NCBI RefSeq assembly: GCF_002909235.1
Contig: NZ_PHQQ01000015.1
Coordinates: forward strand, 1 to 64,000
DNA from: Arenibacter catalasegens
Lineage (GTDB): Bacteria > Bacteroidota > Bacteroidia > Flavobacteriales > Flavobacteriaceae
Length of the DNA: 64,000 nucleotides
Direction of reading: 5' to 3'
The position numbers were made by a program, and so were the translations under genes. Shown here piece after piece: positions 4,320 to 47,359 of the stretch (its first letter is position 1; the number at the start of each line of letters is the position of its first letter). The notes under the pieces are model-generated. The model did not search any database and had not been told where the DNA came from. It worked only from the letters and a program-made list of their open reading frames with translations.

Positions 4320-4537
4320 TCCGCAGGGATTGGAAATCTGAGTAGACGATAAAGTGGTTCTAATTTTGAAATATGTCTGTTGCATTTAAGTGTGGAGGAT
4401 ATTGGCTTCATAACATATGAAACTTGTCGATGCCGAGTCCAAATCTCTCATCAATAAGTCTGTCCTTACCTGATTTAACAAATCCGCCAAAAAATGAACG
4501 ATAAGGTCGTAATTAGAATTTGCCAAGGCAAAAAAAA

Positions 4538-4559
4538 GGCTCCCAATTTCTTGGAAGCC
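4538..4559 (-). terminator. Rho-independent terminator of the tRNA fragment, copy 1
   Basis: On the minus strand GGCTTCCAAGAAATTGGGAGCC folds into a hairpin followed by a run of T. It sits just downstream of the tRNA 3' half (4575-4616), as expected for the tRNA gene's own terminator carried inside the attachment core. Confidence 0.75.
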
Positions 4560-4574
4560 TTGTCTTTGTTACTG

Positions 4575-4616
4575 TGGGCCCTACTGGGTTCGAACCAGTG
4601 ACCCCCTGCTTGTAAG
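4575..4616 (-). other. 3' half of tRNA-Val(UAC): attachment-site core, copy 1
   Basis: On the minus strand the 42 nt equal tRNA positions 32-73. They give anticodon loop CTTACAA (anticodon TAC at 4614-4612), 3' anticodon stem GCAGG, variable loop GGGTC, T-arm ACTGG-TTCGAAC-CCAGT, acceptor strand AGGGCCC and discriminator A, with no CCA encoded. Upstream of the loop the sequence stops matching a tRNA, so the 5' half is missing. This is the usual product of integration by a tyrosine recombinase into a tRNA gene. The intact tRNA should lie at the other end of the array. Confidence 0.75.
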
Positions 4617-4734
4617 CCTAAAAGAAAGGACATCAAATCATATCAAACACCCATCATATATATCTGAATATCAATGTTTTATAGCAATTAAATTTTATTT
4701 GATATCATTTGCATCCATTTGACATACAAAAAAA

Positions 4735-4755
4735 GTGAGCGTAAAGTGAGCGTAA
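4735..4755. promoter_or_regulatory. Tandem integrase arm-type repeats at island left end
   Basis: Two copies of GTGAGCGTAA (4735-4744 and 4746-4755), 11 bp apart, lie between the tRNA core and the integrase start. Degenerate copies occur at the other end of the island (45811-45831) and one copy at 46056-46065. The position and phasing suit binding by the integrase N-terminal arm domain. The function is inferred. Confidence 0.55.
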
Positions 4756-4792
4756 TTATTTCTTACCTTTTCCTTGAAATATTCGAATTGCA

Positions 4793-6049
4793 ATGGCCAA
4801 GGTAAGTTTAATATTGGACACTAGGAAGAAATCCAAAAGCAGTATTACAGGACTATATCCCATAGTCCTAAAGGTCTTTCACAAAAAGAGCCGGCTGATC
4901 GTTCTTGGCCACTCTACCAACCTTACTGGATGGAATAGAAAAACCCAACAGCTCCGAAAATCCGCAGTTATGGACAATGGGCTGGATTACCATAAGATAA
5001 ATGCAGAACTTGGAAATAAATTCCATTGGGCCAGGCAAGTGGTATACGAGCTTGGGGAAAGTATCGGCCGTATAGATGTTGATCTACTACTTGACCACAT
5101 AAAGGTCAGATGGGACGGTGAACAGGACTTTGAAATAAAAAAGAAGGTCGAAAATGATATTTCCCTATCCCAATGGGCAGGTGTGATGATAAAAAGAAAA
5201 CGGTCAGCTAATATTCCTGGAACGGCACAATGGTATCAAAGCGGCGTAGATGCCCTGACCAAATTCAACAATGGAAAGGACATAATGTTATATGATATTA
5301 CGGTGACCTTTCTCAAGGACTTCGAGGCCCAACAATTGAGCAGGGGAAATTCGAAAAACACAATAGGGATGTATATTAGGGCCATTAGGTCCATGTACAA
5401 TGGCGCCATCAAAGAGGACCAATTTGTTCCGCTTAAGAATCCGTTCGATCACTACAAAACTCCCTCAATGGCCCGTACTAAAAAAAAGGCCGTGGCAAAG
5501 GCCAGGATCATGGAACTAAGGACACTGGAATACGAACGGGAAAGCCCGCTTTGGCATGCCAAAAACTATGCCCTTATCATGTTCTACTGCAGGGGAATGA
5601 ACTTTATAGATCTGGTCAAGCTTAAAGTGAAGAATATTGAGGGCGACCGTCTTCTATATGGCAGAAGCAAAACTGGTGACCCTTTTTCCGTCAAGATTAC
5701 CGAAAGTCTTGGCAACATCCTGGAGTTCTACCTAAAGGGGAAACGACCCGAAGATTATTTGTTTCCCACAAACTATGACGGCAGCACCAAACATTATCAA
5801 AAGTACAAATCCCAAAGGAGGAGAATGAACGAACGTCTTAAGGTCATTGCAAAGGATGCGGGGATAGAAGGTGAATTCACAACCTACTACATCCGCCATT
5901 CCTGGGCCACAATAGCCAAGTTCATGGGAATCCCTACAGAGGTTATTAGTGAAGGCTTGGGCCATAAATCTTTAAGGACTACAGAAATCTATTTGAAAAG
6001 CTTTACAAACAATGTTTTGGACGAGGCCAATGAGCTTGTTGTTTCTTGA
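4793..6049 (+). CDS. Tyrosine integrase of genomic island 1
   Basis: This 418-residue site-specific recombinase has an N-terminal arm-DNA-binding domain (about 1-100), a SAM-like core-binding domain (about 115-215) and a catalytic domain (about 230-415). Catalytic residues are seen as Arg in YCRGMNFIDL, Arg in YYIRHSWAT (Tyr replaces the usual His of HxxR, common in this family), His in LGHKSLRTT and Tyr in EIYLKSF. It starts at ATG 4793, 177 bp from the tRNA core, typical of tRNA-targeting islands. A sister copy at 46103-47359 differs at scattered residues. A short inverted repeat AGGTTT-TTT-AAACCT at 6096-6110 may be its terminator. Confidence 0.93.
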   Translation: MAKVSLILDTRKKSKSSITGLYPIVLKVFHKKSRLIVLGHSTNLTGWNRKTQQLRKSAVMDNGLDYHKINAELGNKFHWARQVVYELGESIGRIDVDLLLDHIKVRWDGEQDFEIKKKVENDISLSQWAGVMIKRKRSANIPGTAQWYQSGVDALTKFNNGKDIMLYDITVTFLKDFEAQQLSRGNSKNTIGMYIRAIRSMYNGAIKEDQFVPLKNPFDHYKTPSMARTKKKAVAKARIMELRTLEYERESPLWHAKNYALIMFYCRGMNFIDLVKLKVKNIEGDRLLYGRSKTGDPFSVKITESLGNILEFYLKGKRPEDYLFPTNYDGSTKHYQKYKSQRRRMNERLKVIAKDAGIEGEFTTYYIRHSWATIAKFMGIPTEVISEGLGHKSLRTTEIYLKSFTNNVLDEANELVVS

Positions 6050-15424: not shown

Positions 15425-15467
15425 TGACCAAAATCATTTGGTGCCTCCACGAAATCAGATAGCTTTG
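15425..15467 (+). promoter_or_regulatory. Composite Crp/Fnr-like promoter of USP2
   Basis: TGACCAAAATCA (15425-15436) is a TGA-N6-TCA palindrome. Exactly 23 nt after it comes TAGCTTTG (15460-15467), a perfect TAnnTTTG -7 box. The start codon follows at 15488. A centre about 41.5 nt before the expected transcription start is class II activation geometry. The same layout recurs at the other sites of this island. Confidence 0.7.
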
Positions 15468-15487: not shown

Positions 15488-16327
15488 ATGAATACTATAC
15501 TTTATACAACTAATCTTACCGAAAAAGCGGTACCGGCTTTACGCTACGCCTACGACCTGAGCAACAGATTGGGGGCCGAACTAATTGTCTTATATATCCA
15601 TCAAATACCCCATATACGGGTCTCCGTGGCCCGACAACCTGACCAGATAGAACTTCAAGTAATCCAAGAACAAAAGGATATTTTGAGGGCCTATTGCGCC
15701 AAACATTTGGGTGAAAATTTTGACAAAGGAAGAATGTGGCTAGACGTCGTATGTAATGATTCTGTCTTGGATGGTATTATTGAAAAATCGAAGGAAGTAA
15801 ATCCAGACATCGCGTTGATCGGTAGAAAGGCCAAACATACGGAAAGAGGATTGTTCGCAGGTAATATTGCACAAGGTCTTTTGAAAAGATTGGCTTGCCC
15901 GATTCTAATTATGCCGAACAATATAGGTGGCGTTCCAATCCAAACTATGCTCTATGCCTCGAATTTTGGGGAAGCGGATATTGCGGCCATTAAGAATTTG
16001 GTGCCAATGGCAAAGTCCGTTAACGCGAAAATACATATCGTTCATATCGCCACAGAAAAGCAATACTCCGGAAAGGACCAAATGGAATGGTTCAAGGAAA
16101 CGCTCATGAAACAGGTAGATTATGACAATATTGAAATCAAGATAATCCTCTCTAACCATATCGAGGAAGAACTCAAAATCTATTCGAAACATATTCAGGC
16201 GGATATTTTGGCCCTATTGCATAGGGAAAAAAAAGGCTTCTTTCAAAACCTGTTTAACAAAAGTCTAGTCAAAAAACTGGATACGCAAATAGGTATTCCG
16301 TTGCTGAGCATTAACGAGGCCATTTAA
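15488..16327 (+). CDS. Universal stress protein, tandem UspA domains (2)
   Basis: This 279-residue protein has a first UspA domain from NTILYTTNLTEKAVPALRYA to CPILIMPNNI, with GRKAKHTERGLFAGNIAQGL as loop. A second domain opens at about residue 156 with QTMLYASNFGEADIAAI. The canonical first-domain Asp (PTDF) is replaced by TTNL. It is monocistronic, preceded by the composite promoter at 15425-15467. It is divergent in sequence from the other three USPs, so it is not a recent local duplicate. Confidence 0.88.
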   Translation: MNTILYTTNLTEKAVPALRYAYDLSNRLGAELIVLYIHQIPHIRVSVARQPDQIELQVIQEQKDILRAYCAKHLGENFDKGRMWLDVVCNDSVLDGIIEKSKEVNPDIALIGRKAKHTERGLFAGNIAQGLLKRLACPILIMPNNIGGVPIQTMLYASNFGEADIAAIKNLVPMAKSVNAKIHIVHIATEKQYSGKDQMEWFKETLMKQVDYDNIEIKIILSNHIEEELKIYSKHIQADILALLHREKKGFFQNLFNKSLVKKLDTQIGIPLLSINEAI

Positions 16328-16921: not shown

Positions 16922-16964
16922 TGATAATTATCATTCCAAGAGTCCATTAGCTATCGTATTTTTA
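16922..16964 (+). promoter_or_regulatory. Composite Crp/Fnr-like promoter with no downstream ORF
   Basis: TGATAATTATCA (16922-16933) is a perfect 12-bp palindrome of the TGA-N6-TCA class. After 23 nt comes TATTTTTA (16957-16964), 5 of 6 matches to TAnnTTTG. No gene starts soon after it; the transcript would run to the terminator at 17136-17168. Confidence 0.6.
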
Positions 16965-16968
16965 CAGT

Positions 16969-17168
16969 TATAAAAAGGATAACGTTCTTTGGAATAAGTT
17001 GAAATTTCAGGTTGCCAAGCAGTAATGCCTTTGCAACAATATAAGGGTGCCCGGTCATACGCTTGTTTTCTATGAATAAATTGATATAAGGTTTAATAGA
17101 ATAATGATTTAAGTAGGTCCAACGGCACCCCTCTGAAAGACCGGGATTCCTGCGTGTCCCGGTCTTTT
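16969..17168 (+). ncRNA. Candidate 200-nt small RNA of the stress regulon
   Basis: The segment lies between a composite promoter (16922-16964) and a strong Rho-independent terminator (17136-17168) and holds no sensible reading frame. It can fold: GTTGC (17011-17015) pairs with GCAAC (17033-17037), and GGGTGCC (17045-17051) pairs with GGCACCC (17124-17130), followed directly by the terminator hairpin. The 5' end is estimated from the -7 box. The identity (6S-like, antisense or other) is unknown. Confidence 0.5.
17136..17168 (+). terminator. Strong Rho-independent terminator without an upstream gene
   Basis: AAAGACCGGGA (17136-17146) pairs perfectly with TCCCGGTCTTT (17157-17167), and more T follows. 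With the upstream promoter-like site it frames the small-RNA candidate. Confidence 0.8.
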
Positions 17169-17375
17169 AATAAAAGAATTATCCCAAATGTCTTAGGAAT
17201 AACATAGACACTTTTGAAAAGTGGAGTTACCATCTCAGGGATTTGTTTGTTAAAAACAATATGGAATAGTTTCTCAAAAAATAAATAACAGAATATTGAG
17301 CCTGTATTTTCACATAAAAAGAGATGCTTCCTTGTTCCTATTTTAATTGCTTGTAAATGCTTAAAACATACCATA

Positions 17376-18357: not shown

Positions 18358-18627
18358 TTAAAAGGAGACCGTGCTTTCTGTATATTCTACAAAATCTGTC
18401 CTTCGTTTTGGTTCCTGATAGGTACATTGCGTAATTGGGAAACCTATATGGTACAATTCCCGCTTTGCCTTTTCAAAAGTCGAATTATTTTGATAGAGAA
18501 AGGAAATCGTGCGGGTTTCGATATCGATATCCAAAATACGGATGTCAAGGATGCGGCTTAGGTTTCGAACGATTGTGTGCTTGCAATTATCTGTTTTAAG
18601 ATTTTTTAATTGTGCCAACGCTCTCAT
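18358..18627 (-). CDS. HMA-like small protein without the metal-binding CxxC
   Basis: This 89-residue protein has an HMA (heavy-metal-associated, CopZ-like) fold pattern: LKNLKTDNCKHTIVRNLSRI, LDIDIETRTISFLYQ and KAKRELYHIGFPI. The usual GMxCxxC metal loop is replaced by TDNC, leaving a single Cys, so ordinary copper chaperone function is doubtful. It is transcribed away from the ROK gene. A TATGTTTA box lies 23 nt from the shared TGA-N6-TCA palindrome at 18683-18694, which suggests one site drives both genes. Confidence 0.65.
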   Translation of the reverse strand: MRALAQLKNLKTDNCKHTIVRNLSRILDIRILDIDIETRTISFLYQNNSTFEKAKRELYHIGFPITQCTYQEPKRRTDFVEYTESTVSF

Positions 18628-18651: not shown

Positions 18652-18725
18652 TAAACATATTACATATAAGCCTGTTGCGGAATGATTCTGGTCATGCGGT
18701 CTTATCATTATTTTCAGTTGATTTG
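18652..18725. promoter_or_regulatory. Bidirectional composite Crp/Fnr-like promoter (HMA-like / ROK)
   Basis: The palindrome TGATTCTGGTCA (18683-18694; TGACCAGAATCA on the other strand) has a -7-like box 23 nt away on both sides. TTGATTTG (18718-18725) points to the ROK gene at 18742, and TATGTTTA on the minus strand (18659-18652) points to the HMA-like gene at 18627. Each box matches 5 of the 6 fixed positions. Confidence 0.65.
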
Positions 18726-18741
18726 TGTAAATTTAATGACT

Positions 18742-19722
18742 ATGGAAAAAGAAGTGGTCTTGGGAATCGATTTGGGAGGCACCTACACCAAATTAGGGTT
18801 AGTAACCAAAACAGGGAGTATTTTAAACGTAAGAAGGTTTGATACTAAAGCAAAATTTTCGTTCCATGATTTTTTAAAAAAATTGGAAGGGGAGGTCAAC
18901 GCCCTAAAATCGGTTTTGGGTTCGGGACAACAGCTGATCGGGATCGGAATTGGGGCACCCAATGCCAATCCGCAATCCGGAAATATGGAGAATCCACCCA
19001 ACTTTAGGTGGGGTCAAACGGTGCCACTAGTAAAGTCCATAAAGAAAATATTTAATTTACCCGTCGCCTTGACCAACGATGCCAATGCGGCTGCTTTGGG
19101 CGAATTGGAATACGGTTTGGGAAAGGGCATGAAAAACTTTGTAGTGCTTACCTAGGGAACTGGGTTGGGTGGTGGTATCATCACCAATGGCGAACTGTTG
19201 ATCGGCTAACATGGCATGGCAGCTGAAATCGGCCATGTCAATGTAAACTCCAATCCCAATGCGCGGCAGTGCAATTGTGGGCTTAACGGATGCCTGGAGA
19301 CATATGTGTCGGTAACAGGAATACGGCGTACCATCTTTGATTTGATTGCCAAGATGACCGAGGATTCCAATCTGCGAAGCATCAGTTTCGACGAGATGAC
19401 GGGCGAGCTTATTTCCGATGCTGCCCTCGACGGCGATGCCATCGCCCTAAGCGCTTTTGAGCAGACCGCCGAAACCCTTGGCATACAATTGGCTGACACC
19501 GCGGCACATCTGGACCCCGAAGCCTTTATACTATTGGGCGGACTCAGCAAAGCAGGTGACATCCTTCTTAAACCGACCATTGCCGCCATGGAACGAAACC
19601 TGTTCAATGCTTATAAAGGCAAGATTAAGGTGCTAATCTCAAAAACCCCAAGCGAGAATGCCGTTTTAGGTCCTGCTACGCTTGCATGGAAAGCGTATCG
19701 CAAAAGAACTCCGACAAAATAA
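18742..19722 (+). pseudogene. ROK-family sugar kinase with two in-frame stops
   Basis: One continuous frame of 326 codons encodes a ROK kinase. VVLGIDLGGTYTKLGLV is the phosphate-binding start, LTNDANAAALGELEYG the catalytic Asp region and CNCGLNGCLETYVS the zinc-type ROK signature. A PEAFILLGGLSKAG motif follows. The frame is broken by TAG at 19153 (in VVLT-stop-GTGLGGG) and TAA at 19207 (in LIG-stop-HGMAAEIGH), both inside conserved motifs, 54 nt apart. All other positions are intact, so the damage is recent or tolerated. Intact members phosphorylate glucose with ATP or polyphosphate. The gene keeps its composite promoter. Confidence 0.8.
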
Positions 19723-20320: not shown

Positions 20321-20905
20321 TTAATGTATTTGAAGTTTGAATTTTCTATTTCCCATCCTATAGAAATGGTATGCACTTGAAATATTGAACATCCCTAAAG
20401 TTAAAAAGGCAAGCGCCGTAGCATAAACGATAATTGTGCCGCCCAAAATAGGATATATCATAATCAATAACGAAAAGACCATTATTGCTATTCCATAGGC
20501 TAACGTCAACACCCAACTAGGGCAATTCCAAGAGTTCAATTTCACAGAAATACCTATTGCTAAAACTCCTTTGTATAACATCCAAAAAGCCAATATATAA
20601 GGCAATACGGCCATCGTTGTTAACGGATTTAACAAAAGATACCCCCCGATTAGAAGGTCAAAGACACCTCCGATCAAGTACCATCCCCAATTTTTGATTC
20701 CTTCTCGGTAGAAAATAGAAGCGAATATTTCAAAGGCCCCGGCCGTGGCCAGGGCAAGACTGAAGAAGATGGTCAAAGAAACATAACTGGCCAAAGGCGT
20801 AATGAAAACCCATAAACCAAGTGAAACAAAAAGCAGTCCCATCAAAAGATTGATCCACCATTTTTTTGCTACAGGCATAACCGTACTGTAAACTAAATCC
20901 TTCAT
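20321..20905 (-). CDS. HdeD-family (DUF308) membrane protein
   Basis: This protein of about 194 residues has six membrane segments and the DUF308/HdeD pattern: WWINLLMGLLFVSLGLWVF, SLALATAGAFEIFAS and GWYLIGGVFDLLIGGYLLLNP. The ATG at 20905 is preferred; the frame can extend 3 codons to a TTG. HdeD relatives are linked to acid and other stress and occur in the proteobacterial transmissible stress-tolerance locus. A perfect composite promoter lies at 20930-20972, and the SpoIIAA-like gene follows in the same operon. Confidence 0.85.
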   Translation of the reverse strand: MKDLVYSTVMPVAKKWWINLLMGLLFVSLGLWVFITPLASYVSLTIFFSLALATAGAFEIFASIFYREGIKNWGWYLIGGVFDLLIGGYLLLNPLTTMAVLPYILAFWMLYKGVLAIGISVKLNSWNCPSWVLTLAYGIAIMVFSLLIMIYPILGGTIIVYATALAFLTLGMFNISSAYHFYRMGNRKFKLQIH

Positions 20906-20929
20906 GATTTTCAATTTTTAGTTATGTCA

Positions 20930-20972
20930 CAAACCTATTGAAAACCTTTGGATCATGCCATGATGCATATCA
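20930..20972 (-). promoter_or_regulatory. Composite Crp/Fnr-like promoter of the hdeD-like operon
   Basis: TGATGCATATCA (20961-20972) is the palindrome. On the minus strand a perfect TAGGTTTG -7 box (20937-20930) follows after exactly 23 nt. The ATG at 20905 gives a short leader of about 20 nt. Confidence 0.7.
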
Positions 20973-20989: not shown

Positions 20990-21032
20990 TGATAAATATC
21001 AGTTCCCAATAATTTTGATGGACTTAGTTTTA
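20990..21032 (+). promoter_or_regulatory. Composite Crp/Fnr-like promoter toward the LOV kinase
   Basis: TGATAAATATCA (20990-21001) is followed 23 nt later by TAGTTTTA (21025-21032), 5 of 6 matches to TAnnTTTG, pointing to the histidine kinase gene at 21250. It stands 18 nt from the hdeD site, so the two divergent transcription units are controlled side by side. Confidence 0.6.
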
Positions 21033-21249: not shown

Positions 21250-23130
21250 ATGCATGTTTTTGAAAAGAACAGTGATATTTTTATGTTGTTATCCGAGGCC
21301 GTATCGGAAGGAATTATCGTGGTAAATGAGGAACAGGGAATCGTGGCCGCCAATCATCTCGCTCACAAATTGTTCTGCTACGGACCAAATAAACTGGTTG
21401 GCCGCCCTTTGGAAATCTTGATGCCAGAAACCCACAGAAAAGTACACCAAAAGTACCTTAAGGAGTATTTCCATAAACATGAAAAAAGAAGGATCGGGGC
21501 AGATCAAAACCTCTTTGGCCTCAGAAAGAACGGCAAAGAGTTTCCATTGGAAGTTAGTCTGAACCGCTTTTCGCTATATGGAAATACTTATACCCTTATT
21601 CTGGTCATCGACATTACCGAACGCCGAAAAATCGAAAAAAGCTACCTGATGAAAACTGCGGCCCTTGAGGCCGCTCTGAACGGAATTACCATTACCGATG
21701 CCTTAAAGGAAGACAACCCTATCATTTATTTCAACCCGGCATTTCAGGAAATTACCGGATACTCCTCGGACGAAATTCAAAATAGAAATTGTCGGTTTCT
21801 ACAGTCAGGGGACAATGACCAGCAAGGTGTCAGGGATATGCATTATGCCATTTCAAAAGGCAAAAGCTGTCAAGTACAACTCAGGAACTATAAAAAGGAT
21901 GGTACCATGTTCTGGAACGAGGTTTCCATAAATCCTATCAAGGACAAAGATGGAACTATCACCCATTTTGTTGGAATACAGAATGATATTACCGAGCGGA
22001 AATTGGCTCTTCAAAAAATTGGACATTTAATTCGAATCTTTGATGAATCGCTCAACGAACTTTATGTTTATGATGCCGAAAAACTACAGTTTTTGAATGC
22101 CAATTACGGAGCCCAAAAAAACACGGGCTATACCTTGGAAGAATTTCTGCAACTTACGCCCTTGGATCTTAAACCTGATTTTTCGGAAGCAGATTTGCGT
22201 GGGTTAATAGCTCCCCTACTCAACGGCAAAGAGGAAAAAGTGGAATACGAGGCGGTACACCGGCGCAAAAACGGTACAAGTTATCCCGTAGAGGTACATC
22301 TGCAATCATCTACCTTGGGCGATCAAAAGGTCATCGTTGCTATAATTCTTGACATTTCGGACCGAAAGTATTATACCCAAAAACTGGAAAAAACCGTTGC
22401 GGAACGTACAGAACAGTTAAAAAAAGCACTTGAAAGGGAAAAAGAATTGAACGAGTTAAAGAGCAAATTCCTGTCCTTGGTCTCGCATGAGTTCAAAACT
22501 CCCTTGAGCGGCATCCTTAACTCTGCAACATTGGTAGGTAAGTATCAAAGGGAGGACCAACAGGATAAAAGGGAAAAACACTTAAAGACCATCATGGGAG
22601 GTGTACAGCACCTTACAAATATCTTGGATGATTTTCTTTCTATTGAACGAATGGAAAAGGGTAAGGAGGTGTACTACCTTTCCGATTTTTCACTCAGTAA
22701 ACTGGTAAACGAGGTCGTTTACAACTCAAATATGCTTCTCAAAAATGGGCAACGCATCAACTATCCACACAATATTGAAGATGTGACCATACATCAAGAC
22801 CAGCGTATAGTAGCCCTGACTTTGACCAACCTTTTGCACAATGCCATAAAATATTCCCCCGAGGATACCGAAATAGACTTAAAAGTGGATTTGTCGGAAG
22901 ACAAGATCACTTTCCAAATCAAGGATGAAGGCATCGGTATTTCCAAAAAAGACCATAAGCATATTTTTGATCGGTATTTCAGATCCGAAAATGTGCTTTT
23001 GACCCAAGGCACAGGTATTGGGCTAAACATCGTAAAGACACATTTGGAAAATTTAGGAGGACGTATCTATTTTACAAGTGCAGAAAATCAAGGCAGCACT
23101 TTTACAGTGGAATTGCCAATAGAGAGTTAG
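21250..23130 (+). CDS. LOV-domain sensor histidine kinase (PAS-LOV-PAS-HK)
   Basis: This 626-residue soluble kinase begins with a PAS domain (about 10-125, MPETHRKVHQKYLKEYF). A LOV-type PAS follows (about 140-250), with Cys181 in RNCRFLQSGDND and the flavin contacts Asn180, Gln185, Asn213 (LRNYKKDG), Asn223 (FWNEVSINPI) and Gln244 (FVGIQNDITERK). A third PAS (about 257-378) and a short coiled coil lead to the kinase domain: H-box SLVSHEFKTPLSGI, N-box LLHNAIKYSPED, G1 DEGIGIS, G2 GTGIGLNIVKTHLENLGG. LOV domains bind FMN and form a cysteinyl adduct in blue light. The next gene on this strand is a receiver-Crp regulator (23299), the likely partner. Confidence 0.92.
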   Translation: MHVFEKNSDIFMLLSEAVSEGIIVVNEEQGIVAANHLAHKLFCYGPNKLVGRPLEILMPETHRKVHQKYLKEYFHKHEKRRIGADQNLFGLRKNGKEFPLEVSLNRFSLYGNTYTLILVIDITERRKIEKSYLMKTAALEAALNGITITDALKEDNPIIYFNPAFQEITGYSSDEIQNRNCRFLQSGDNDQQGVRDMHYAISKGKSCQVQLRNYKKDGTMFWNEVSINPIKDKDGTITHFVGIQNDITERKLALQKIGHLIRIFDESLNELYVYDAEKLQFLNANYGAQKNTGYTLEEFLQLTPLDLKPDFSEADLRGLIAPLLNGKEEKVEYEAVHRRKNGTSYPVEVHLQSSTLGDQKVIVAIILDISDRKYYTQKLEKTVAERTEQLKKALEREKELNELKSKFLSLVSHEFKTPLSGILNSATLVGKYQREDQQDKREKHLKTIMGGVQHLTNILDDFLSIERMEKGKEVYYLSDFSLSKLVNEVVYNSNMLLKNGQRINYPHNIEDVTIHQDQRIVALTLTNLLHNAIKYSPEDTEIDLKVDLSEDKITFQIKDEGIGISKKDHKHIFDRYFRSENVLLTQGTGIGLNIVKTHLENLGGRIYFTSAENQGSTFTVELPIES

Positions 23131-23298
23131 GCGCCGGAAATTGCAGCGAACAGAAGAAAAAATTTTGAGTTTATAACAAAACTAGTTGTAATTATTAATA
23201 AAGAAACTATAATAAAAATTAAGGCTATCCTAGTGGTTAAACTGACAGATTTGTGTAATTATAGTTGGAAATAGCTATCAAGAATAAAATTAATTCCT

Positions 23299-24351
23299 AT
23301 GAGAAAAATCCTATTGATCGAAGACGACACTGTTTTAAGGGAAACCACGGCCGAGCTTTTAGAGCTTTCGGGTTTCGAGGTACGTACTGCCGCAGATGGT
23401 AAAAATGGAATTCAAATAACTAAAGAATATATGCCAGATGTAATTGTCTGCGATATTATGATGCCCGAGATTGATGGTTATGGGGTATTGAAAACACTAT
23501 CTCAAGATAACCATACCAAGAGCATTCCCTTTATATTCCTTTCTGCCAAGACAGAACGAAAAGATGTGCGCAAGGGCATGGACCTAGGTGCGGACGATTA
23601 TCTCACAAAACCCTTTATGGAAACGGAACTTATTGGTGCCATTGAAAGCCGATTGGCGCGAATGGCAATACTCAATGATACCGAAGCTTCAACCAAAAGT
23701 ATCAGGAAGCTTTCAGGCATCAAAATGGAAACCATTCATGAGCTTAAAAACTTCATAGACGACAACGGATCTGAGTACAATTTTGAAATAGAGGAAAACA
23801 TATACCGAGAGGGCACGTATTCAAACACGGTCTATCTCATTATAAAAGGTACAGTAAAGACCCATATTCTGGATCAGAAAGGGAAGGAATTGATTACGGG
23901 AATTTACAAGGCCGATGATTTCTTTGGCTTTACTTCCTTTACCAGCAACACCTTGCACAAAGAATATGCAACCGCCATGACTAAAACCCAATTGGTGGCT
24001 ATCCCTACGATAGAACTGGAGCCATTGTTGCGGGAAAACCATGAATTGACGATGGAACTGATGCAAATTCTATCAGAAAACCTAACTGAGGCCAAGGCAC
24101 AATTGTTGGAAATGGCCTATGGCTCTGTTAGACGGAAAACGGCTGGGACACTTTTAAAATTCGCCGAGAAACTTCAAAAAGACTCCAATGGAAACATACT
24201 TGTACTACGAAGCGATCTAGCCAGCGTTGCGGGTATGGCCACAGAGACCATGATACGGACACTCTCTAGCTTTAAAAAAGAAGGCCTTATTGATATTGAG
24301 AACCATAGAATTAGAATTGTCGACGTTAACGGTCTTGATCAAGTGGATTGA
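23299..24351 (+). CDS. Receiver-Crp fusion response regulator
   Basis: This 350-residue protein has a receiver domain (about 1-120, Asp52 in VCDIMMPEIDGYG, Lys in LTKPF). A cNMP-binding-like beta barrel follows (about 150-260; VYLIIKGTVKTHI, ELITGIYKADDFFGF), then a Crp-type winged helix (about 275-345; LRSDLASVAGMATETMIRTLSSFKKEGLI). The recognition helix keeps Glu and Arg spaced as in Crp/Fnr (E-T-M-I-R), the residues that read a TGA/TCA half-site. It sits 168 bp after the LOV kinase and is the best candidate to bind the TGA-N6-TCA sites of the island. Whether cAMP or another ligand is used is unknown. Confidence 0.9.
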   Translation: MRKILLIEDDTVLRETTAELLELSGFEVRTAADGKNGIQITKEYMPDVIVCDIMMPEIDGYGVLKTLSQDNHTKSIPFIFLSAKTERKDVRKGMDLGADDYLTKPFMETELIGAIESRLARMAILNDTEASTKSIRKLSGIKMETIHELKNFIDDNGSEYNFEIEENIYREGTYSNTVYLIIKGTVKTHILDQKGKELITGIYKADDFFGFTSFTSNTLHKEYATAMTKTQLVAIPTIELEPLLRENHELTMELMQILSENLTEAKAQLLEMAYGSVRRKTAGTLLKFAEKLQKDSNGNILVLRSDLASVAGMATETMIRTLSSFKKEGLIDIENHRIRIVDVNGLDQVD

Positions 24352-24744
24352 TTACTTTGGGAATTTTTTGTTTTATAGCTCCCTTTAGTGTTGATAAGCA
24401 TTAGAAGACGGAATTATTAATCCGGAACGGATTATCGAAAACGAGATTCTATACTTGCAGCATTTTACACAAAAAAATAAAAATCCCTTCTCTCCTTGCA
24501 ATTAAACTTTTCTCAGCCTTAGTCTTATGTTAAGTATAATAAACAAACCTTGGAATATGCTGCCTGCATGACCATTATCATTTCGCATCGTGTTTTGAGG
24601 GCCTAATTTTACAGCATCAAACCGAGATTCATGTCGCAATGAAATGAGTCATAATCCTGCTCCGAATCAAAGCGATATGTTTTATGGCGATGTTTCCCAA
24701 TAATTATCGGGGTGCCCCTATTAAAAACTAATAAATATATCCAG
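24352..24744 (+). promoter_or_regulatory. Intergenic region with composite Crp/Fnr-like promoter of USP3
   Basis: TGACCATTATCA (24569-24580) is followed after 23 nt by TAATTTTA (24604-24611), 5 of 6 matches to TAnnTTTG. The leader to ATG 24745 would be about 130 nt, longer than at most other sites. A small inverted repeat AATCCG-GAA-CGGATT sits at 24419-24433. No coding frame is seen. Confidence 0.6.
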
Positions 24745-25584
24745 ATGAAACAAATCCTTGTACCCACCGATTTCTCTGAAAATGCATGGAACGCTCTCCT
24801 ATATGGACTTGACCTTTTTCAAAATACAAAGTGTATTTTCTATTTGTTGCACGTAAATCCAGTAACAGGATATTCTGGTGCTAGTTCTACCATTCAAAAA
24901 ACGTCCCTTACCTTGAAAGAAAACCTTTTGAACACCAGTATGGGCGAAATGCGCATATGGATGGAACGTATCGAAAAACTTCCAGTGAATACAAAGCATA
25001 TGTTCTTTCCCCTAATCCACTTTAACTATTTTATCGATACGATAAAAAGTGAAGTACAACACAAGAATATAGACCTTATCATTATGGGAACCAAAGGCGC
25101 TACAGGACTCAAAAAAGCAACAATAGGCAGTAATACTGGCGATGTAATTACCAAGGTAAAATGCCCTCTGCTCGCCGTTCCCGAAGATGTGGAGTATATC
25201 AGACCAAAAGAGATCGTTTTCCCTACGGATTATCAAATAGGTTATGACCTAAAAGTCTTGGATTCCTTGATAGAAATGACAAACATGAATAAAGCCGTAC
25301 TGAGGATTTTGCATATTTCCAAAAAAGGAGAGGAACTGAACCAGGAACAACTTAAAAACAAGGATTTTCTACAGGATTATTTATTGGATGTAGACCATAG
25401 TTTCCACTCTCTTACCGGTACAAAACTTGAAACTGCCGTGCAATGTTTTACCGAAAGTAGGGACATCGATATGATTTCAATGGTGGCCAAGAATCTCAAC
25501 TTTTTCCAAAAGATTTTATTTCGGCCAGCCGTTGAAGAAATTAGTTACCATACCAAAGTGCCATTTCTAGTACTGCACGAGTAA
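24745..25584 (+). CDS. Universal stress protein, tandem UspA domains (3)
   Basis: This 279-residue protein starts at ATG 24745 (MKQILVPTDFSENAWNALLY); the in-frame ATG at 24712 adds 11 unlikely residues. Domain 1 has the complete ATP-type loop GTKGATGLKKATIGSNTGDVI and CPLLAVPEDV. Domain 2 opens with KEIVFPTDYQIGYDLKVLD. It is 54 nt upstream of the MscS gene, so the two are probably cotranscribed from the promoter at 24569. Confidence 0.9.
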   Translation: MKQILVPTDFSENAWNALLYGLDLFQNTKCIFYLLHVNPVTGYSGASSTIQKTSLTLKENLLNTSMGEMRIWMERIEKLPVNTKHMFFPLIHFNYFIDTIKSEVQHKNIDLIIMGTKGATGLKKATIGSNTGDVITKVKCPLLAVPEDVEYIRPKEIVFPTDYQIGYDLKVLDSLIEMTNMNKAVLRILHISKKGEELNQEQLKNKDFLQDYLLDVDHSFHSLTGTKLETAVQCFTESRDIDMISMVAKNLNFFQKILFRPAVEEISYHTKVPFLVLHE

Positions 25585-27622: not shown

Positions 27623-30403
27623 CTATTCCTCCAAAAACTGTCGAAGCACATATTGTAAAATACCGCCATGCTTTACGTATTCAATTTCGATTTCCGAATC
27701 CAATCGAATGATCACCTTGAATGTGATTTCTGACCCGTCTTCCTTTCGTGCGGTTACATCGAGTTCTTTGCCAGGTTTGAGGCCCGTCGCTATCCCTGTA
27801 ATGGAAATGGTTTCATGCCCTGATAACCCCAAGCTGTTGGCATCTTCCTCTTCTTTAAATTTCAAGGGCAAAATGCCCATCCCCACCAAATTAGACCTGT
27901 GGATTCGTTCGTACGAACTGGCAATGACCGCTTTTACGCCCAATAAGCTGGCTCCTTTTGCCGCCCAGTCTCGCGAAGATCCGGAACCGTATTCACTGCC
28001 CGCAAGAACAATCAAAGGAGTATCGCTTTCCATATACTTCATAGCTGCATCGTATACACTCATTTCCCTATTTTCGGGGAAATAGGTTGTAAAACCACCC
28101 TGTTTTGAGGCTATTTCATTCTTGATGAACACATTGGCAAAAGTGCCCCGCATCATCACTTCGTGATTCCCCCTTCTAGAACCATAGGAATTGAACATGG
28201 ATCGCTCGATACCTTTCGATTTAAGGTATTGTCCTGCTGGACTTTCCTCAGAAAATGAGCCAGCAGGCGAAATATGATCTGTTGTGACAGAGTCACCCAA
28301 CTTCATCAGTACCCTAGCGCTGGCAATGTCCTTTAGCTGATCTGGTGTTTCGCTAATGTTCTTAAAGAACGGTATTTCCTTGATATAGGTGGAATCTTCT
28401 TTCCACTCATAGTCCAGTCCTGTGGGGGCCGGTAGGTTTTTCCATTGTTCTTCCCCGTCAAAAATTACAGAATATTCCTTGGCATAATCTTCCTTGGTCG
28501 TAGCACTTTCAATGGCCTCCTGAATTTCTTCTTGACTGGGCCAAATATCCTTTAGATATACGTCCTGTCCGTTTACGTCTTGAGTCAGTGGTTCTTCCAT
28601 CAGATTGACATCTACACGTCCTGCAATGGCATAAGCTACCACCAACATGGGCGATGCCAAGAAGTTCATCCGAATCTTGGGATGGATCCTGGCCTCAAAA
28701 TTCCGGTTTCCGCTCAAGACCGAAGCGGCCACAAGATCACATTCGTCTATCGCTTTTTCTATATGGGGCGGCAAGGGACCCGAATTACCTATACATGTGG
28801 TACAGCCGTAACCCACCACATGGAATTTCAATGCCTCAAGATGTTGTAAAAGACCTGCACGCCTTAAATAATTGGTCACGACTTTTGACCCAGGCGCCAA
28901 GGAGGTCTTTACCCAAGGTTTTACATCCAGCCCTTTTTCTATGGCTTTTTTTGCTACCAGACCCGCTCCCAACATAACCGAAGGGTTGGAGGTATTTGTA
29001 CAGGAGGTAATGGCGGCCACAACAATGGAGCCATCACTTAATGCATATTCTTGATTGCCCTTGCTAATCCGAACGGAATGCAATGCTGTATCCTTCTGTA
29101 CCTCTACTTCTACATCATCTGCAACTTCTTTATCTCGGAATCGTTTGTTGAAACGGGTGCCAGAACCACCCTCGGCATACCAGGTTTCACGTTCTTCCAA
29201 GGGCACATAATCCCTACCATGCATCTCCTTTAGAAGGTTTCCGAATTGGTCTTTCAAATCCTTGACCAATATTTTATCCTGTGGTCGTTTAGGCCCTGCT
29301 AAAGACGGTTGTAATGTGGACAAATCCACCCTAATAACATCAGAGTAGTCCATATTTTCTTTTCCAGTTCGCCATAAGAGGTTGTTTTTACAATATTGTT
29401 CCACCAAATCGATTTGTTTTTGATCGCGATTGGTCTTTTCCATATACCGAAGGGTCTGGTCGTCAATCGGAAAATAGGTGATGGTACATCCAAATTCCGG
29501 AGACATATTGGCAATGGTGGCACGATCCGGTACGGACAAATGGTCGAGACCGGCTCCAAACACCTCCACAAAATCGCCCACTACGCCATATTTGCGAAGT
29601 CGGTTCGTGATTTCCAATACCATATCGGTAGCTGTAATACCTTCTTGAAGTTTACCATTTAATTCCAAACCGATAACCTTGGGACTGGAAAAATAAATGG
29701 GCTGCCCTAACAATGCCGCTTCCGCCTCAATACCACCAACACCCCAACCTACTACACCAATACCATTGACCATGGGGGTATGTGAATCAGTGCCAACCAA
29801 AGTATCGGGATATGCCCAGCCATCCCTTGAAACAACACCCTTTGCTAGGTATTCTAAATTTACCTGATGGCAAATACCCATTCCTGGAGGAACAACAGTA
29901 AAATCCTCAAAGGCGTTCTGTGCCCATTTTAACAGTTCGTAGCGTTCGCTGTTACGCTTGTATTCAAACTCCACATTCTTTTTATAAGCGTAATCGGTAC
30001 CAAAAAAATCGACCTGAACCGAATGATCAATGACCAGATCTACAGGAACTTTCGGATTAATCTTTGCTCCATCCTTACCTTTTCGGATGGCTTCAGAACG
30101 GATGGCGGCAATATCGACTACGGCCGGTACCCCAGTAAAATCTTGCATGAGCACGCGAGCCGGTTTATAGGGAATGGAAGCATCGCTGCCCTTCGAATTC
30201 CAATTAATCAGGTTTTCGATATGTTCATCAGTTACCAAAAAACCGTCATAGTTTCGTAAGGCATTTTCCAATAAAATACGAATGGAAAACGGCAGTTTTT
30301 TTAACTGTGGATATACCTCGGCTACTTTTTCGAGACTGATGATTTCGAGTTTTGTGCCCTCTACATTTAAGGTGCTTTTGAAAGTGTTTTTATATGTTCC
30401 CAT
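27623..30403 (-). CDS. acnA: Aconitate hydratase (AcnA-type)
   Basis: A 926-residue aconitase if started at ATG 30403 (MGTYKNTFKSTLNVEG); the frame extends to 30478. The [4Fe-4S] cysteines are in AITSCTNTSNPSVM and GYGCTTCIGNSGPLPPH. Substrate loops such as VGTDSHTPMVNGIGVVGWGVGG and AGSEYGSGSSRDWAAKGASLLGVKAV are intact. It isomerizes citrate to isocitrate; AcnA-type enzymes are the stress-resistant form and double as RNA-binding regulators without the cluster. Its promoter region carries the composite site at 30564-30606. It is unusual cargo for an island and is presumably a second aconitase copy. Confidence 0.95.
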   Translation of the reverse strand: MGTYKNTFKSTLNVEGTKLEIISLEKVAEVYPQLKKLPFSIRILLENALRNYDGFLVTDEHIENLINWNSKGSDASIPYKPARVLMQDFTGVPAVVDIAAIRSEAIRKGKDGAKINPKVPVDLVIDHSVQVDFFGTDYAYKKNVEFEYKRNSERYELLKWAQNAFEDFTVVPPGMGICHQVNLEYLAKGVVSRDGWAYPDTLVGTDSHTPMVNGIGVVGWGVGGIEAEAALLGQPIYFSSPKVIGLELNGKLQEGITATDMVLEITNRLRKYGVVGDFVEVFGAGLDHLSVPDRATIANMSPEFGCTITYFPIDDQTLRYMEKTNRDQKQIDLVEQYCKNNLLWRTGKENMDYSDVIRVDLSTLQPSLAGPKRPQDKILVKDLKDQFGNLLKEMHGRDYVPLEERETWYAEGGSGTRFNKRFRDKEVADDVEVEVQKDTALHSVRISKGNQEYALSDGSIVVAAITSCTNTSNPSVMLGAGLVAKKAIEKGLDVKPWVKTSLAPGSKVVTNYLRRAGLLQHLEALKFHVVGYGCTTCIGNSGPLPPHIEKAIDECDLVAASVLSGNRNFEARIHPKIRMNFLASPMLVVAYAIAGRVDVNLMEEPLTQDVNGQDVYLKDIWPSQEEIQEAIESATTKEDYAKEYSVIFDGEEQWKNLPAPTGLDYEWKEDSTYIKEIPFFKNISETPDQLKDIASARVLMKLGDSVTTDHISPAGSFSEESPAGQYLKSKGIERSMFNSYGSRRGNHEVMMRGTFANVFIKNEIASKQGGFTTYFPENREMSVYDAAMKYMESDTPLIVLAGSEYGSGSSRDWAAKGASLLGVKAVIASSYERIHRSNLVGMGILPLKFKEEEDANSLGLSGHETISITGIATGLKPGKELDVTARKEDGSEITFKVIIRLDSEIEIEYVKHGGILQYVLRQFLEE

Positions 30404-30563
30404 AACTGTTGAAATTTTACCGATTCTTGATATTACACTAAAAATTCCAGACTGTATTCTCTTTGTCAACGAGGTCATAATAATTGGCCCTTATCCTATG
30501 AACGATACCCAAAATGACTCCTTGACCCTTATCCTGAATTACATCCTTCTACTTGTTTTACTG

Positions 30564-30606
30564 CGAAAGTATATACTTGTTTCTAGATGTGAAATGATTA
30601 CGATCA
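30564..30606 (-). promoter_or_regulatory. Composite Crp/Fnr-like promoter of acnA
   Basis: TGATTACGATCA (30595-30606; TGATCGTAATCA on the minus strand) is followed on the minus strand after 23 nt by TACTTTCG (30571-30564), 5 of 6 matches to TAnnTTTG. The minus-strand flank GACTGATCGTAATCATTTC closely resembles that of the site at 32130. The leader to 30403 would be about 155 nt. Confidence 0.6.
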
Positions 30607-30643: not shown

Positions 30644-30686
30644 TGACCAATATCATTGCGTAAGGCTTTTATCAAACTTATTTTCG
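30644..30686 (+). promoter_or_regulatory. Composite Crp/Fnr-like promoter toward USP4
   Basis: TGACCAATATCA (30644-30655) plus TATTTTCG (30679-30686) after 23 nt, 5 of 6 matches to TAnnTTTG, on the plus strand. The next gene on that strand is USP4 at 31020, giving a leader of about 330 nt in 30687-31019, in which no ORF is seen. A weaker TGA-N5-TCA at 30811-30821 has no phased box. Confidence 0.5.
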
Positions 30687-31019
30687 CGTCAAATTAAAGT
30701 ACAATGCGAACGGTTTCAGTGCCTACCTATTTCCTGGATAATGTTTTCAGTCTTTTAAAATATGCCTGTCTAATATTCTAATATGAGACTAGCGAAATTT
30801 TCATAGTGATTGACCACATCATTAAGGTATGCCAAAAAATATTGGGAGGGAGTTCTTTCGAAGAATTAAAGATGACAAACAGAGAATCGTATCTATTTTA
30901 CTGTCCTATCCTTAACCACAATTACAAAAATAGGTATGTAGTTAAAGATACCCTTTTTGGCACTCCAAAACAATTCTAGATAAAAAAAGTTAGAAGTACA
31001 AAACATAAAATTTGAACAT

Positions 31020-31868
31020 ATGAAAAAAATAATCCTTCCCACCGATTTTTCCGAGAACGCGTATAATGCTATACGCTATGCTGTACAACTTTATAAGGAT
31101 GTGGAGACAACCTTCTATCTACTCCACACCTATACCCCACCAATTTTTCAAGTGGAGTATGTCTTTCAAAGCCCAAGCCAAAACGGACTCGAAGACCTCT
31201 ATCAAACGAGGGCGATGAAGCAATTGGAAGCATTAAAACAGCGGTTACAAGATGAATTCGAAATTCCGGAACACATCTTTAGGATGCGGGCAGCCTTTAA
31301 TACTTTGACCGACGAAATTCTTTTAATGACCAAGAACGAAAATGCAGATTTGGTCATTATGGGGACCCAAGGAGTAACAAAGGCCAAGGAAATCCTTTTG
31401 GGCACCAATACCACCCATGTTTTGAATAAGACCATTTGTCCTGTGATTGCTGTACCCTCCGACTTTATTTATAAGACCCCGAAGGCTATTCTATTTCCTA
31501 CGGATTATGAAATCGATTATAATAGGGAAAATTTGCAACAACTATTGAATATCTCCAAAAAGTATGGGTCAACAATAGATGTGATTCATATATCCTCAGG
31601 TTACGATTTAACGGAAGAGCAATTGCGGAACAAACAAAAACTAAAAGATATTCTTGTACCTACTGACCATGTTTTTAACGACCTGCCCGATCAAGGAGTT
31701 ATCGATGCTATAAACCAATTTCAGACCAAGAAAGCAATGGACCTTTTAAGCATGGTGCGGAACAAACATACTTTTTTCGAACGTATGTTCGTTGAGCCTA
31801 TCATCAAAAAAATAGGGTTTCAAATTGAAATTCCGTTTATGGTAATTCCGCATGTGGATAAAAAGTGA
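31020..31868 (+). CDS. Universal stress protein, tandem UspA domains (4)
   Basis: This 282-residue protein starts KKIILPTDFSENAYNAIRYA. Domain 1 has the nucleotide loop GTQGVTKAKEILLGTNTTHVL and CPVIAVPSDF. Domain 2 starts KAILFPTDYEIDYNRENLQ. It is closest in layout to USP3 (same 30-residue middle section, IDVIHISSGYDLTEEQLRNKQKL against ILHISKKGEELNQEQLKNK), so these two are likely paralogues from duplication. Confidence 0.9.
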   Translation: MKKIILPTDFSENAYNAIRYAVQLYKDVETTFYLLHTYTPPIFQVEYVFQSPSQNGLEDLYQTRAMKQLEALKQRLQDEFEIPEHIFRMRAAFNTLTDEILLMTKNENADLVIMGTQGVTKAKEILLGTNTTHVLNKTICPVIAVPSDFIYKTPKAILFPTDYEIDYNRENLQQLLNISKKYGSTIDVIHISSGYDLTEEQLRNKQKLKDILVPTDHVFNDLPDQGVIDAINQFQTKKAMDLLSMVRNKHTFFERMFVEPIIKKIGFQIEIPFMVIPHVDKK

Positions 31869-32129: not shown

Positions 32130-32172
32130 TGACCATAATCATTTCAGAGGTTATTTAAACATCCTAAATTTG
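32130..32172 (+). promoter_or_regulatory. Composite Crp/Fnr-like promoter of the decayed USP
   Basis: TGACCATAATCA (32130-32141) is followed after 23 nt by a perfect TAAATTTG box (32165-32172). The remnant gene starts at 32195. The promoter has outlived the gene it served. Confidence 0.65.
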
Positions 32173-32194: not shown

Positions 32195-32583
32195 ATGGGC
32201 AAAAGGAAATTACTTCTCACCGATTTTTCAAAGCACGTCCTCAATACTGTTCGATATTCATTGGTTCTGTAAGCGGGACAAAAATGTTCCTTTTACTTTC
32301 TGAACATATATGAGGTAGAAGGCTATTCCATTGAATGTTTTGCATATAGATCGGAACCGGGCCAACGTTCTTATGAAATAGAAAAATGGAAAAACACTTC
32401 GAAAAATTAATAAAAGTACTACGTCTACGCCATACCAACCCCTATATTTTTTACGAAACGATCAGGACCCACAATACCTTGTTCGGAGCCATTAGGGATA
32501 TCCTGTCTATTGGACAAATATCCAAAGTTTACTTACTAAGCGAATCTTGGACTAAGAGCATTAATAGATTAAATAAAATTTAA
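32195..32583 (+). pseudogene. Universal stress protein pseudogene
   Basis: It starts MGKRKLLLTDFSKHVLNTVRYSLVL and stops at TAA 32270, then continues in the same frame as GQKCSFYFLNIYEVEGYSIECF. After a frame change comes FEKLIKVLRLRHTNPYIFYETI and HNTLFGAIRDIL. This follows the order of a UspA domain 1 and resembles USP1 and USP4. The second domain is absent. The gene is disabled by a stop, a frameshift and a truncation just before the cytosine deaminase gene. Confidence 0.7.
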
Positions 32584-45831: not shown

Positions 45832-45858
45832 TTAGCGATTTTATGAAAAACCAAAAAA

Positions 45859-45880
45859 GGCTCCCAATTTCTTGGAAGCC
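45859..45880 (-). terminator. tRNA-fragment terminator, copy 2
   Basis: Same hairpin as at 4538-4559 (GGCTTCCAAGAAATTGGGAGCC on the minus strand), followed by a T-run (AAAAAA at 45853-45858 on the plus strand). Confidence 0.75.
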
Positions 45881-45895
45881 TTGTTCTTGTTACTG

Positions 45896-45937
45896 TGGGC
45901 CCTACTGGGTTCGAACCAGTGACCCCCTGCTTGTAAG
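45896..45937 (-). other. 3' half of tRNA-Val(UAC): attachment-site core, copy 2
   Basis: This is identical to 4575-4616 and gives tRNA positions 32-73 on the minus strand. The 5' half is again missing, as the integrase-side sequence replaces it. Confidence 0.75.
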
Positions 45938-46102
45938 CCTAAAAGAAAGGACATCAAATCATATCAAACACCCATCATATATATCTGAATATCAATGTTT
46001 TATAGCGATTAAATTTTATTTGATATCATTTGCATCCATTTGATATACAAAAAAAGTGAGCGTAATTATTTCTTACCTTTTCCTTGAAATATTCGAATTG
46101 AT

Positions 46103-47359
46103 ATGGCCAAGGTAAGTTTAATATTGGACACTAGGAAGAAATCCAAAAGCAGCATTACAGGACTATATCCCATAGTCCTCAAGGTCTTTCATAAAAAGAG
46201 CCGGCTGATCGTTCTTGGCTACTCTACCAACCTTACAGGATGGGATAGAAAAACCCAACAGCTCCGAAAATCAGCGGTTATGGACAATGGGCTGGATTAC
46301 CATAAGATAAATGCAGAACTTGGCAATAAATTCCATTGGGCCAGGCAAATGGTATACGAGCTTGGTGAAAGTATCGCCCGTATTGGTGTTGATCTACTAC
46401 TTGACCACATAAAGGTCAGATGGGACGGTGAACAGGACTTTGAAATAAAAAAGAAGGTCGAAAATGATATTTCCCTATCCCAATGGGCAGGTGTGATGAT
46501 AAAAAGAAAACGGTCAGCTAATATTCCTGGAACGGCACAATGGTATCAAAGCGGAGTAGATGCCATAACCAAATTCAACAATGGAAAGGACATAATGTTA
46601 TATGATATTACGGTGACCTTTCTCAAGGACTTCGAGGCCCAACAATTGAGCAGGGGAAATTCCAAAAATACGATAGGGATGTACATTAGGGCGATCAGGT
46701 CCATGTACAATAGCGCCATCAAAGAGGACCAATTTGTTCCGCTAAAAAATCCGTTCGACCATTACAGAACGCCCTCAATGGTCCGCACTAAAAAAAAGGC
46801 CGTGGCAAAGGCCAGGATCATGGAACTAAGGACATTGGAATACGAACGGGAAAGCCCGCTTTGGCACGCCAAGAACTATGCCCTTATCATGTTCTACTGC
46901 AGGGGAATGAACTTTATTGATCTGGTAAAGCTCAAAGTAAAAAATATTGAGGGCGACCGTCTTCTATATGGCAGAAGCAAAACTGGTGACCCTTTTTCGG
47001 TCAAGATTACAGAAAATCTTAGCATCATCCTGAAGTTCTACCTTAAGGGGAAACTACCTGAGGATTTTCTGTTTCCCACCAACTATGACGGCAGCACCAA
47101 ACATTATCAAAAGTACAAATCCCAAAGGAGGAGAATGAACGAACGTCTTAAGATCATCGCAAAGGATGCAGGGATAGAAGGGGTATTTACGACGTATTAC
47201 ATTCGTCATTCTTGGGCCACGATAGCCAAATATATGGGAATATCAACTGAAATCATAAGTGAAGGTCTTGGGCATAATTCCTTAAGGACCACAGAGATTT
47301 ACTTGAAAAGCTTTACCAACACAGTTTTGGATGAGGCCAATGAGCTTGTTATTTTATGA
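46103..47359 (+). CDS. Tyrosine integrase of island 2
   Basis: A 418-residue sister of the integrase at 4793, with the same domains and catalytic residues (YCRGMNFIDL, YYIRHSWAT, LGHNSLRTTEIYLKSF). Differences are scattered, for example LGHN for LGHK, SMVRTKK for SMARTKK, and ITENLSIILKF for ITESLGNILEF. Synonymous changes cluster in the last third, so the copies diverged some time ago or came from related but separate elements. It stands right after the second tRNA core. Confidence 0.93.
   Translation: MAKVSLILDTRKKSKSSITGLYPIVLKVFHKKSRLIVLGYSTNLTGWDRKTQQLRKSAVMDNGLDYHKINAELGNKFHWARQMVYELGESIARIGVDLLLDHIKVRWDGEQDFEIKKKVENDISLSQWAGVMIKRKRSANIPGTAQWYQSGVDAITKFNNGKDIMLYDITVTFLKDFEAQQLSRGNSKNTIGMYIRAIRSMYNSAIKEDQFVPLKNPFDHYRTPSMVRTKKKAVAKARIMELRTLEYERESPLWHAKNYALIMFYCRGMNFIDLVKLKVKNIEGDRLLYGRSKTGDPFSVKITENLSIILKFYLKGKLPEDFLFPTNYDGSTKHYQKYKSQRRRMNERLKIIAKDAGIEGVFTTYYIRHSWATIAKYMGISTEIISEGLGHNSLRTTEIYLKSFTNTVLDEANELVIL

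Follow-up and report, generated by a model that had tools for sequence, protein, structure and literature searches.

A FixL-like PAS kinase with an inserted LOV domain and its receiver-Crp partner in a mobile island of Arenibacter catalasegens: a predicted low-oxygen and stress circuit

What does a LOV-containing histidine kinase sense when it sits beside a receiver-Crp regulator in a mobile island of Arenibacter catalasegens, and which genes does the pair control? A sequence-only reading of the window (the whole stretch of 64,000 nucleotides that was analyzed) had proposed that blue light or flavin redox acts through the kinase and the receiver-Crp protein on dormancy genes, with feedback on the kinase. 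Both genes lie exactly where that reading had placed them (Table 1), and our analysis points to a compressed FixL-FixJ-FixK-like circuit of two genes, supplemented with LOV as an input and driving low-oxygen and stress genes, as the probable arrangement.

Table 1. Features of the window, with examples of two regulon families from other loci. Target and ligand assignments are predictions.
Feature	Position	Strand	Details
Left island end	4532..6044	+	tRNA 3' remnant (4586) and tyrosine integrase 4793-6049
Operator-promoter of USP 15488-16327	15425..15467	+	51 bp
Operator-promoter before candidate ncRNA	16922..16964	+	followed by a terminator-ended stretch of ~200 nt without a longer ORF
Operator-promoter of 89-aa ORF 18358-18627	18652..18694	-
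Divergent operator-promoter of DUF308 gene 20321-20914	20930..20972	-
Operator and -7 element facing the kinase	20990..21032	+	TAGTTTTA; 248 bp from site to start codon
Sensor histidine kinase	21250..23130	+	626 aa; PAS-A, LOV, PAS-C, HisKA, HATPase (Pfam and AlphaFold model)
PAS-A, FixL/DosP-like heme-PAS	21250..21630	+	aa 1-127; PDB sequence matches, paralog fold search, residue survey
LOV domain	21652..22002	+	aa 135-251; adduct Cys is C181
PAS-C	22027..22371	+	aa 260-374
HisKA (H413) and HATPase	22372..23130	+
Receiver-Crp response regulator	23299..24351	+	350 aa; Response_reg, cNMP_binding, HTH_Crp_2
Operator-promoter of USP 24712-25584	24569..24611	+	131 bp
Operator-promoter of aconitase gene 27623-30478	30564..30606	-	116 bp
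Operator-promoter	30644..30686	+	followed at 48 bp by a short USP start, apparently decayed; USP 31020-31868 lies further downstream
Operator-promoter	32130..32172	+	followed at 54 bp by a decayed USP start (MGKRKLLLTDFSK..., a stop after 25 codons)
Right island end	45853..47354	+	second copy, tRNA remnant and integrase 46103-47359
Regulon families without a domain match, examples	L116:8246-8650, L059:2897-3340

The whole-kinase AlphaFold model has a pLDDT of 81, with about 92 in the LOV part, and Pfam together with a residue check identifies H413, within HisKA, as the phospho-acceptor next to a HATPase domain. LOV photoreceptors are the best solved relatives in a PDB search. As had been proposed, the domain keeps Cys181 and the Asn/Gln flavin contacts, and its motif is complete (N180-C181-R182-F-L-Q185, R195, N213, N223, Q244). 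These features support a LOV domain of the photoactive type, for which flavin binding and a response to light are predicted. The regulator likewise has the receiver and the Crp-type module first described for it, with D52 and K104 in the receiver and the expected Glu and Arg (E316, R320) in the recognition helix. A stretch of this protein read by eye (DDFFGFTSF...KEYATA) is without the Glu and the Arg-Ser of the CRP cAMP pocket.

We collected relatives as receiver-Crp proteins from 199 Flavobacteriaceae genomes, one per genus, plus 80 named loci, a set in which a few loci represent one strain twice (e.g., L064 and L081). At E 1e-60 the regulator is present in 86 of the 199 genera sampled. Directly upstream of 100 of the 103 regulator genes, and on the same strand, lies a histidine kinase gene, commonly overlapping by 1-4 bases, and the distances among kinases correlate with those among regulators (r 0.776, 0 of 2000 permutations), a correlation to which shared species history contributes. 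Linkage and correlated divergence strongly support the pairing suggested by the sequence-only reading as real, and the predicted phosphotransfer runs from the kinase to the receiver domain of its neighbor.

The input side of the circuit looks different across the family than it does from this locus. Among 100 kinases, the architectures were PAS-A-HK (54), PAS-A-PAS-C-HK (27), and PAS-A-LOV-PAS-C-HK (18), with one distant kinase carrying none of PAS-A, LOV, or PAS-C; LOV was never found without PAS-C in this set. At E 1e-3, the PDB sequence matches of PAS-A were FixL (8e-14), DosP, and 10jx, the FG214 heme-binding PAS by its title in the fold search. The same genome encodes on another contig (C18) a LOV-less kinase of 503 aa that, the absent LOV aside, is colinear with the window kinase; its PAS-A has one further PDB match, a PAS of unnamed ligand (E 5e-4). 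In a fold search with the model of this second PAS-A, EcDOS, FixL, and FG214 scored best and LOV structures were equally close (4gcz at rank 2), as expected for PAS folds. The constant input of the kinase family, present in 99 of the 100 kinases, is by these matches a putative N-terminal FixL/DosP-like heme-PAS and not LOV, which is an extra cassette. Such an input would make the core circuit one of oxygen or redox type to which light is accessory, so that blue light or flavin redox, on which the original circuit claim centered, keeps the backing of a photoactive-type LOV motif but loses its place as the main signal. Mapped on the regulator tree, presence of LOV takes eight changes, at least four of them forced by well-supported branches; the cassette has been gained or lost repeatedly, and we reject one origin for all LOV forms.

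How much of the heme-PAS function survives where LOV is present is the point on which readings of the input diverge. The window PAS-A keeps a histidine (H66) at the position of the FixL proximal His, which is conserved in 94 of 99 PAS-A kinases; a proximal His is by itself no proof of heme. At the position of the FixL distal Arg the window kinase has a glutamine (Q86), and of the kinases without LOV, 71 of 81 keep this arginine, versus 6 of 18 of those with it (Fisher p 6.5e-6). Given Gln86 and the general loss of the arginine in LOV forms, O2 binding in the window PAS-A may be altered or lost. Light might even have replaced oxygen, with PAS-A a relic dimerization module and the LOV kinase a pure blue-light or flavin-redox sensor placed on an old low-oxygen regulon. 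This we consider unlikely: loss of the distal Arg in 12 of the 18 LOV kinases, the window kinase included, and a Tyr (in two) or Leu (in one) at the proximal-His position speak for it, but the other 15 LOV kinases retain the proximal His, and the association of arginine loss with LOV is not independent because the LOV forms are related. The tree offers four supported independent contrasts (sign test p 0.5), which leaves a replacement of O2 sensing suggestive at most. Nor does a LOV domain that works as a flavin redox sensor instead of a photosensor, with all inputs reporting respiration or redox, seem to us a good bet. It would fit a natural LOV kinase of the family (L107:8109-9995) in which Leu replaces the adduct Cys (NLRFLQ), the altered LOV Gln of three others (L134, L136, L068), and the description of LovK as integrating light and redox in a title cited in PMC6798134; set against this, the window kinase retains the adduct Cys and the flavin contacts, and the Cys is present in 17 of the 18 LOV kinases. 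A more far-reaching possibility, to which we give somewhat less than even odds, is a heme-PAS kinase family that has repeatedly gained or lost LOV, sums light and oxygen into the receiver-Crp/USP regulon, and spreads on mobile islands. The kinase would sense low O2, NO, or redox through its FixL-like PAS, probably by way of heme, and in the window variant blue light or flavin redox would enter as a second input through the inserted LOV, with a sign that we can only infer.

On the output side, the regulator can be tied to a precise DNA signal. In the intergenic DNA of 100 loci, TGA-N6-TCA ranked top of 320 half-site/spacing palindromes, with 595 occurrences observed versus 73 expected. The operator consensus is [A/C]TGAY....RTCA[T/G], with T at -1 in 7% of sites, a frequency that rules out the classical FNR site TTGAT-N4-ATCAA as the consensus. 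The known -7 promoter element of Bacteroidota is TAnnTTTG. TAnnTT starts exactly 35 bases downstream of the operator's first T (29.5 bp from the operator center) in 592 of 2502 oriented sites, compared with 13-41 sites (typically about 28) at each of the other offsets from 25 to 59. This spacing puts the predicted site center near -41, where class II activators of the Crp/Fnr family bind. The commonest distance from operator to start codon is 50-59 bp. Operator-promoters thin out with distance from the regulator gene, from 0.48 per kb to 0.17 per kb, with an off-register control at 0.003-0.014. Full operator-promoter counts strongly distinguish genomes that have the regulator from those that lack it, compared with a weak separation by bare operators (median log2 1.26 vs 0.86, p 9e-4). 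From these statistics we predict with high confidence that TGA-N6-TCA is the operator of the receiver-Crp regulator. The Glu/Arg helix, the palindromic TGA half-sites, and the fixed promoter spacing are those of a class II Crp/Fnr protein, and the receiver-Crp protein, bound at this consensus, would activate transcription in that manner. That it acts there as a repressor is very improbable; the operator does overlap the -33 region, but a center near -41 at a fixed distance from the -7 element is the geometry of an activator.

Within the window, the sequence-only picture of an island full of such promoters holds in a narrower form. The loose motif TGA-N6-TCA is not enriched (27 found, 21 expected), whereas ATGAYN4RTCAT with one mismatch is (21 vs 11.9 expected, 0 of 100 shuffles), and nine island operators all have a -7 element at the family-wide distance, with a chance of about 1.5e-15. 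In the ORF map eight of these fall between genes; the ninth (18683) overlaps no more than the opening codons of an ORF whose start is doubtful. Enrichment of the tight motif, the palindrome rank, and the fixed -7 spacing rule out a chance motif. By operator position, the predicted island targets are two intact USP genes (15488, 24712), the DUF308 gene, the 89-aa ORF, the aconitase gene, and the kinase gene, in agreement with the USP and acnA targets proposed at the outset. The promoter said to face the kinase is there, on the forward strand and with a correct -7 element, so that a feedback loop can be drawn for this copy, but an operator within 320 bp of the kinase occurs in 3 of 18 LOV loci (and in 3 of 53 PAS-A-HK loci), which rules out conserved feedback as a general feature. 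Two short USP-like starts on the forward strand (30704-30780 and 32196-32275) stand at canonical operator distance and then run into stops, apparently as decayed USP genes. The stretch at 16922-17178 (+) ends in a strong intrinsic terminator and folds better than 200 of 200 shuffles (z -3.4), and we regard it as a candidate operator-controlled small RNA. Rfam gave no match at gathering score in the island, this candidate included; a weak 73% match over 64 nt (E 0.03) follows another gene-less operator, at L016:9306.

Across the family loci, 460 genes lie within 200 bp downstream of operator-promoters. USP forms the largest cluster of targets, with 196 genes from 97 loci, followed by two families without a Pfam match, Hsp20 (17), WG-repeat, HPF (14), thioredoxin (13), and MlaE, names that rest on one representative per cluster. 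The two unnamed families, of 134 aa in 49 loci and 147 aa in 27 loci, had no match in Pfam or NCBIfam. In the window's genome we counted 47 operator-promoters versus 4 by a control pattern; they include sites 50 bp before ccoS and the fused ccoNO of a cbb3 oxidase and one before a NirK-like multicopper oxidase. By its gene content, this target set bears the apparent marks of a low-oxygen-type regulon. The outputs of the circuit would be USPs, Hsp20, a ribosome-hibernation factor, and thioredoxin, with aconitase added in this island and the kinase gene in this copy. A larger cluster on contig C18 (G000:C18:8000-50000, L013-L015), with about 16 operator-promoters and about 12 USP genes, also holds the LOV-less kinase and its receiver-Crp partner.

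The operator is not assignable to the receiver-Crp protein alone. The window's genome also encodes a stand-alone Fnr-like protein (C23) whose recognition helix (TATESAIR) is similar and whose own gene has an operator, and apparently this protein is a second reader that would recognize the same boxes. Across the 199 genomes, and with kinship ignored, the median number of operator-promoters was 2 with neither regulator, 12 with the Fnr-like protein only, 19 with receiver-Crp only, and 32 with both, so that the two effects look additive in this comparison and the two regulators probably share TGA-N6-TCA sites. The operator counts and the Fnr-like helix make partly true what the sequence-only reading had named as a danger to itself, a different cognate regulator, yet the sites are still abundant where receiver-Crp stands without the Fnr-like protein. 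The C23 protein could in principle serve the island operators in the main, leaving the kinase/receiver-Crp pair to control something else, and its helix, the operator at its gene, and the operators of genomes that lack receiver-Crp would suit that arrangement. We think it improbable, given the excess of sites in receiver-Crp-only over neither-regulator genomes (p 1.4e-12) and the peak of operator-promoter density around the receiver-Crp gene.

A probable FixL-FixJ-FixK-like circuit invites comparison with known systems. It would work like FixL/FixJ/FixK, sharing with FixL-FixJ-FixK/FnrN a heme-PAS-type kinase, a Crp/Fnr-type output, cytochrome oxidase targets, and a parallel Fnr protein; FnrN and FixLJ-FixK are redundant in Alphaproteobacteria (PMC4999443). 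It differs in that receiver and Crp module are one protein in place of FixJ plus FixK, in its USP-centered regulon, and in the inserted LOV. The kinase is not to be filed as a FixL, having lost the distal Arg, nor the regulator as a FixJ, as Pfam finds cNMP_binding and HTH_Crp_2 as its output and not a LuxR-type domain. In the engineered kinase YHF, which unites LOV with a heme-PAS, the responses to light and O2 are cooperative (PMC6798134). Compared with YHF and YF1, both engineered LOV-FixL kinases, the window kinase is natural, has the order PAS(heme-like)-LOV-PAS, and serves another regulator and other promoters. LovK of Caulobacter and LOV-HK of Brucella, the latter among the best structural matches, are likewise soluble LOV histidine kinases; the window kinase differs in its extra heme-PAS-like domain, HisKA/HATPase core, and receiver-Crp partner. 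DosS/DosT-DosR of Mycobacterium, a system of heme sensor kinases that control USPs and Hsp20 under hypoxia, governs a dormancy regulon of comparable content, and its regulator and operator are unrelated to those here. AppA/PpsR of Rhodobacter also brings blue light and oxygen or redox together in one protein, AppA integrating them by other domains (PMC4844311): it is a BLUF and SCHIC antirepressor and not a kinase, and a Pfam search found neither domain in the kinase and regulator proteins.

If these predictions hold, a widespread Flavobacteriaceae regulator would have an exact operator-promoter grammar and show class II Crp-type activation at the unusual promoter of Bacteroidota, and the window kinase would give the engineered light-plus-oxygen kinase YHF an equivalent in nature. 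As material on signal integration by tandem PAS domains, the family would also offer matched kinases that carry or lack the LOV cassette. A kinase that reads both blue light and low oxygen would be ecologically meaningful, since the two are opposing cues in surface water and sediment. The open-access literature held no description of this kinase/receiver-Crp system, which is weak evidence of novelty, subscription journals being outside the scope of the search.

The mobile nature of the island, suspected from the start, is borne out by its ends, two direct 1.5-kb copies, 93% identical, of a tRNA 3' remnant plus integrase. A search of plasmid records found no similar DNA. In 17 genus mates, no regulator came closer than 63% to that of the window, and the C18 paralog groups with Arenibacter sequences in the regulator tree, so the window pair is probably a later arrival. 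Between the island ends, an apparently broken ROK-family gene persists as N- and C-terminal ORFs (18682-19155 and 19216-19722, +), and a Type ISP restriction enzyme is reduced to its C-terminal specificity domain in a remnant at 13106-13906 (-). An AbiEi-type antitoxin gene lies beside the island, where it neighbors another integrase and overlaps a gene for a 285-aa protein without a Pfam match, possibly its toxin partner (1446-3279, +).
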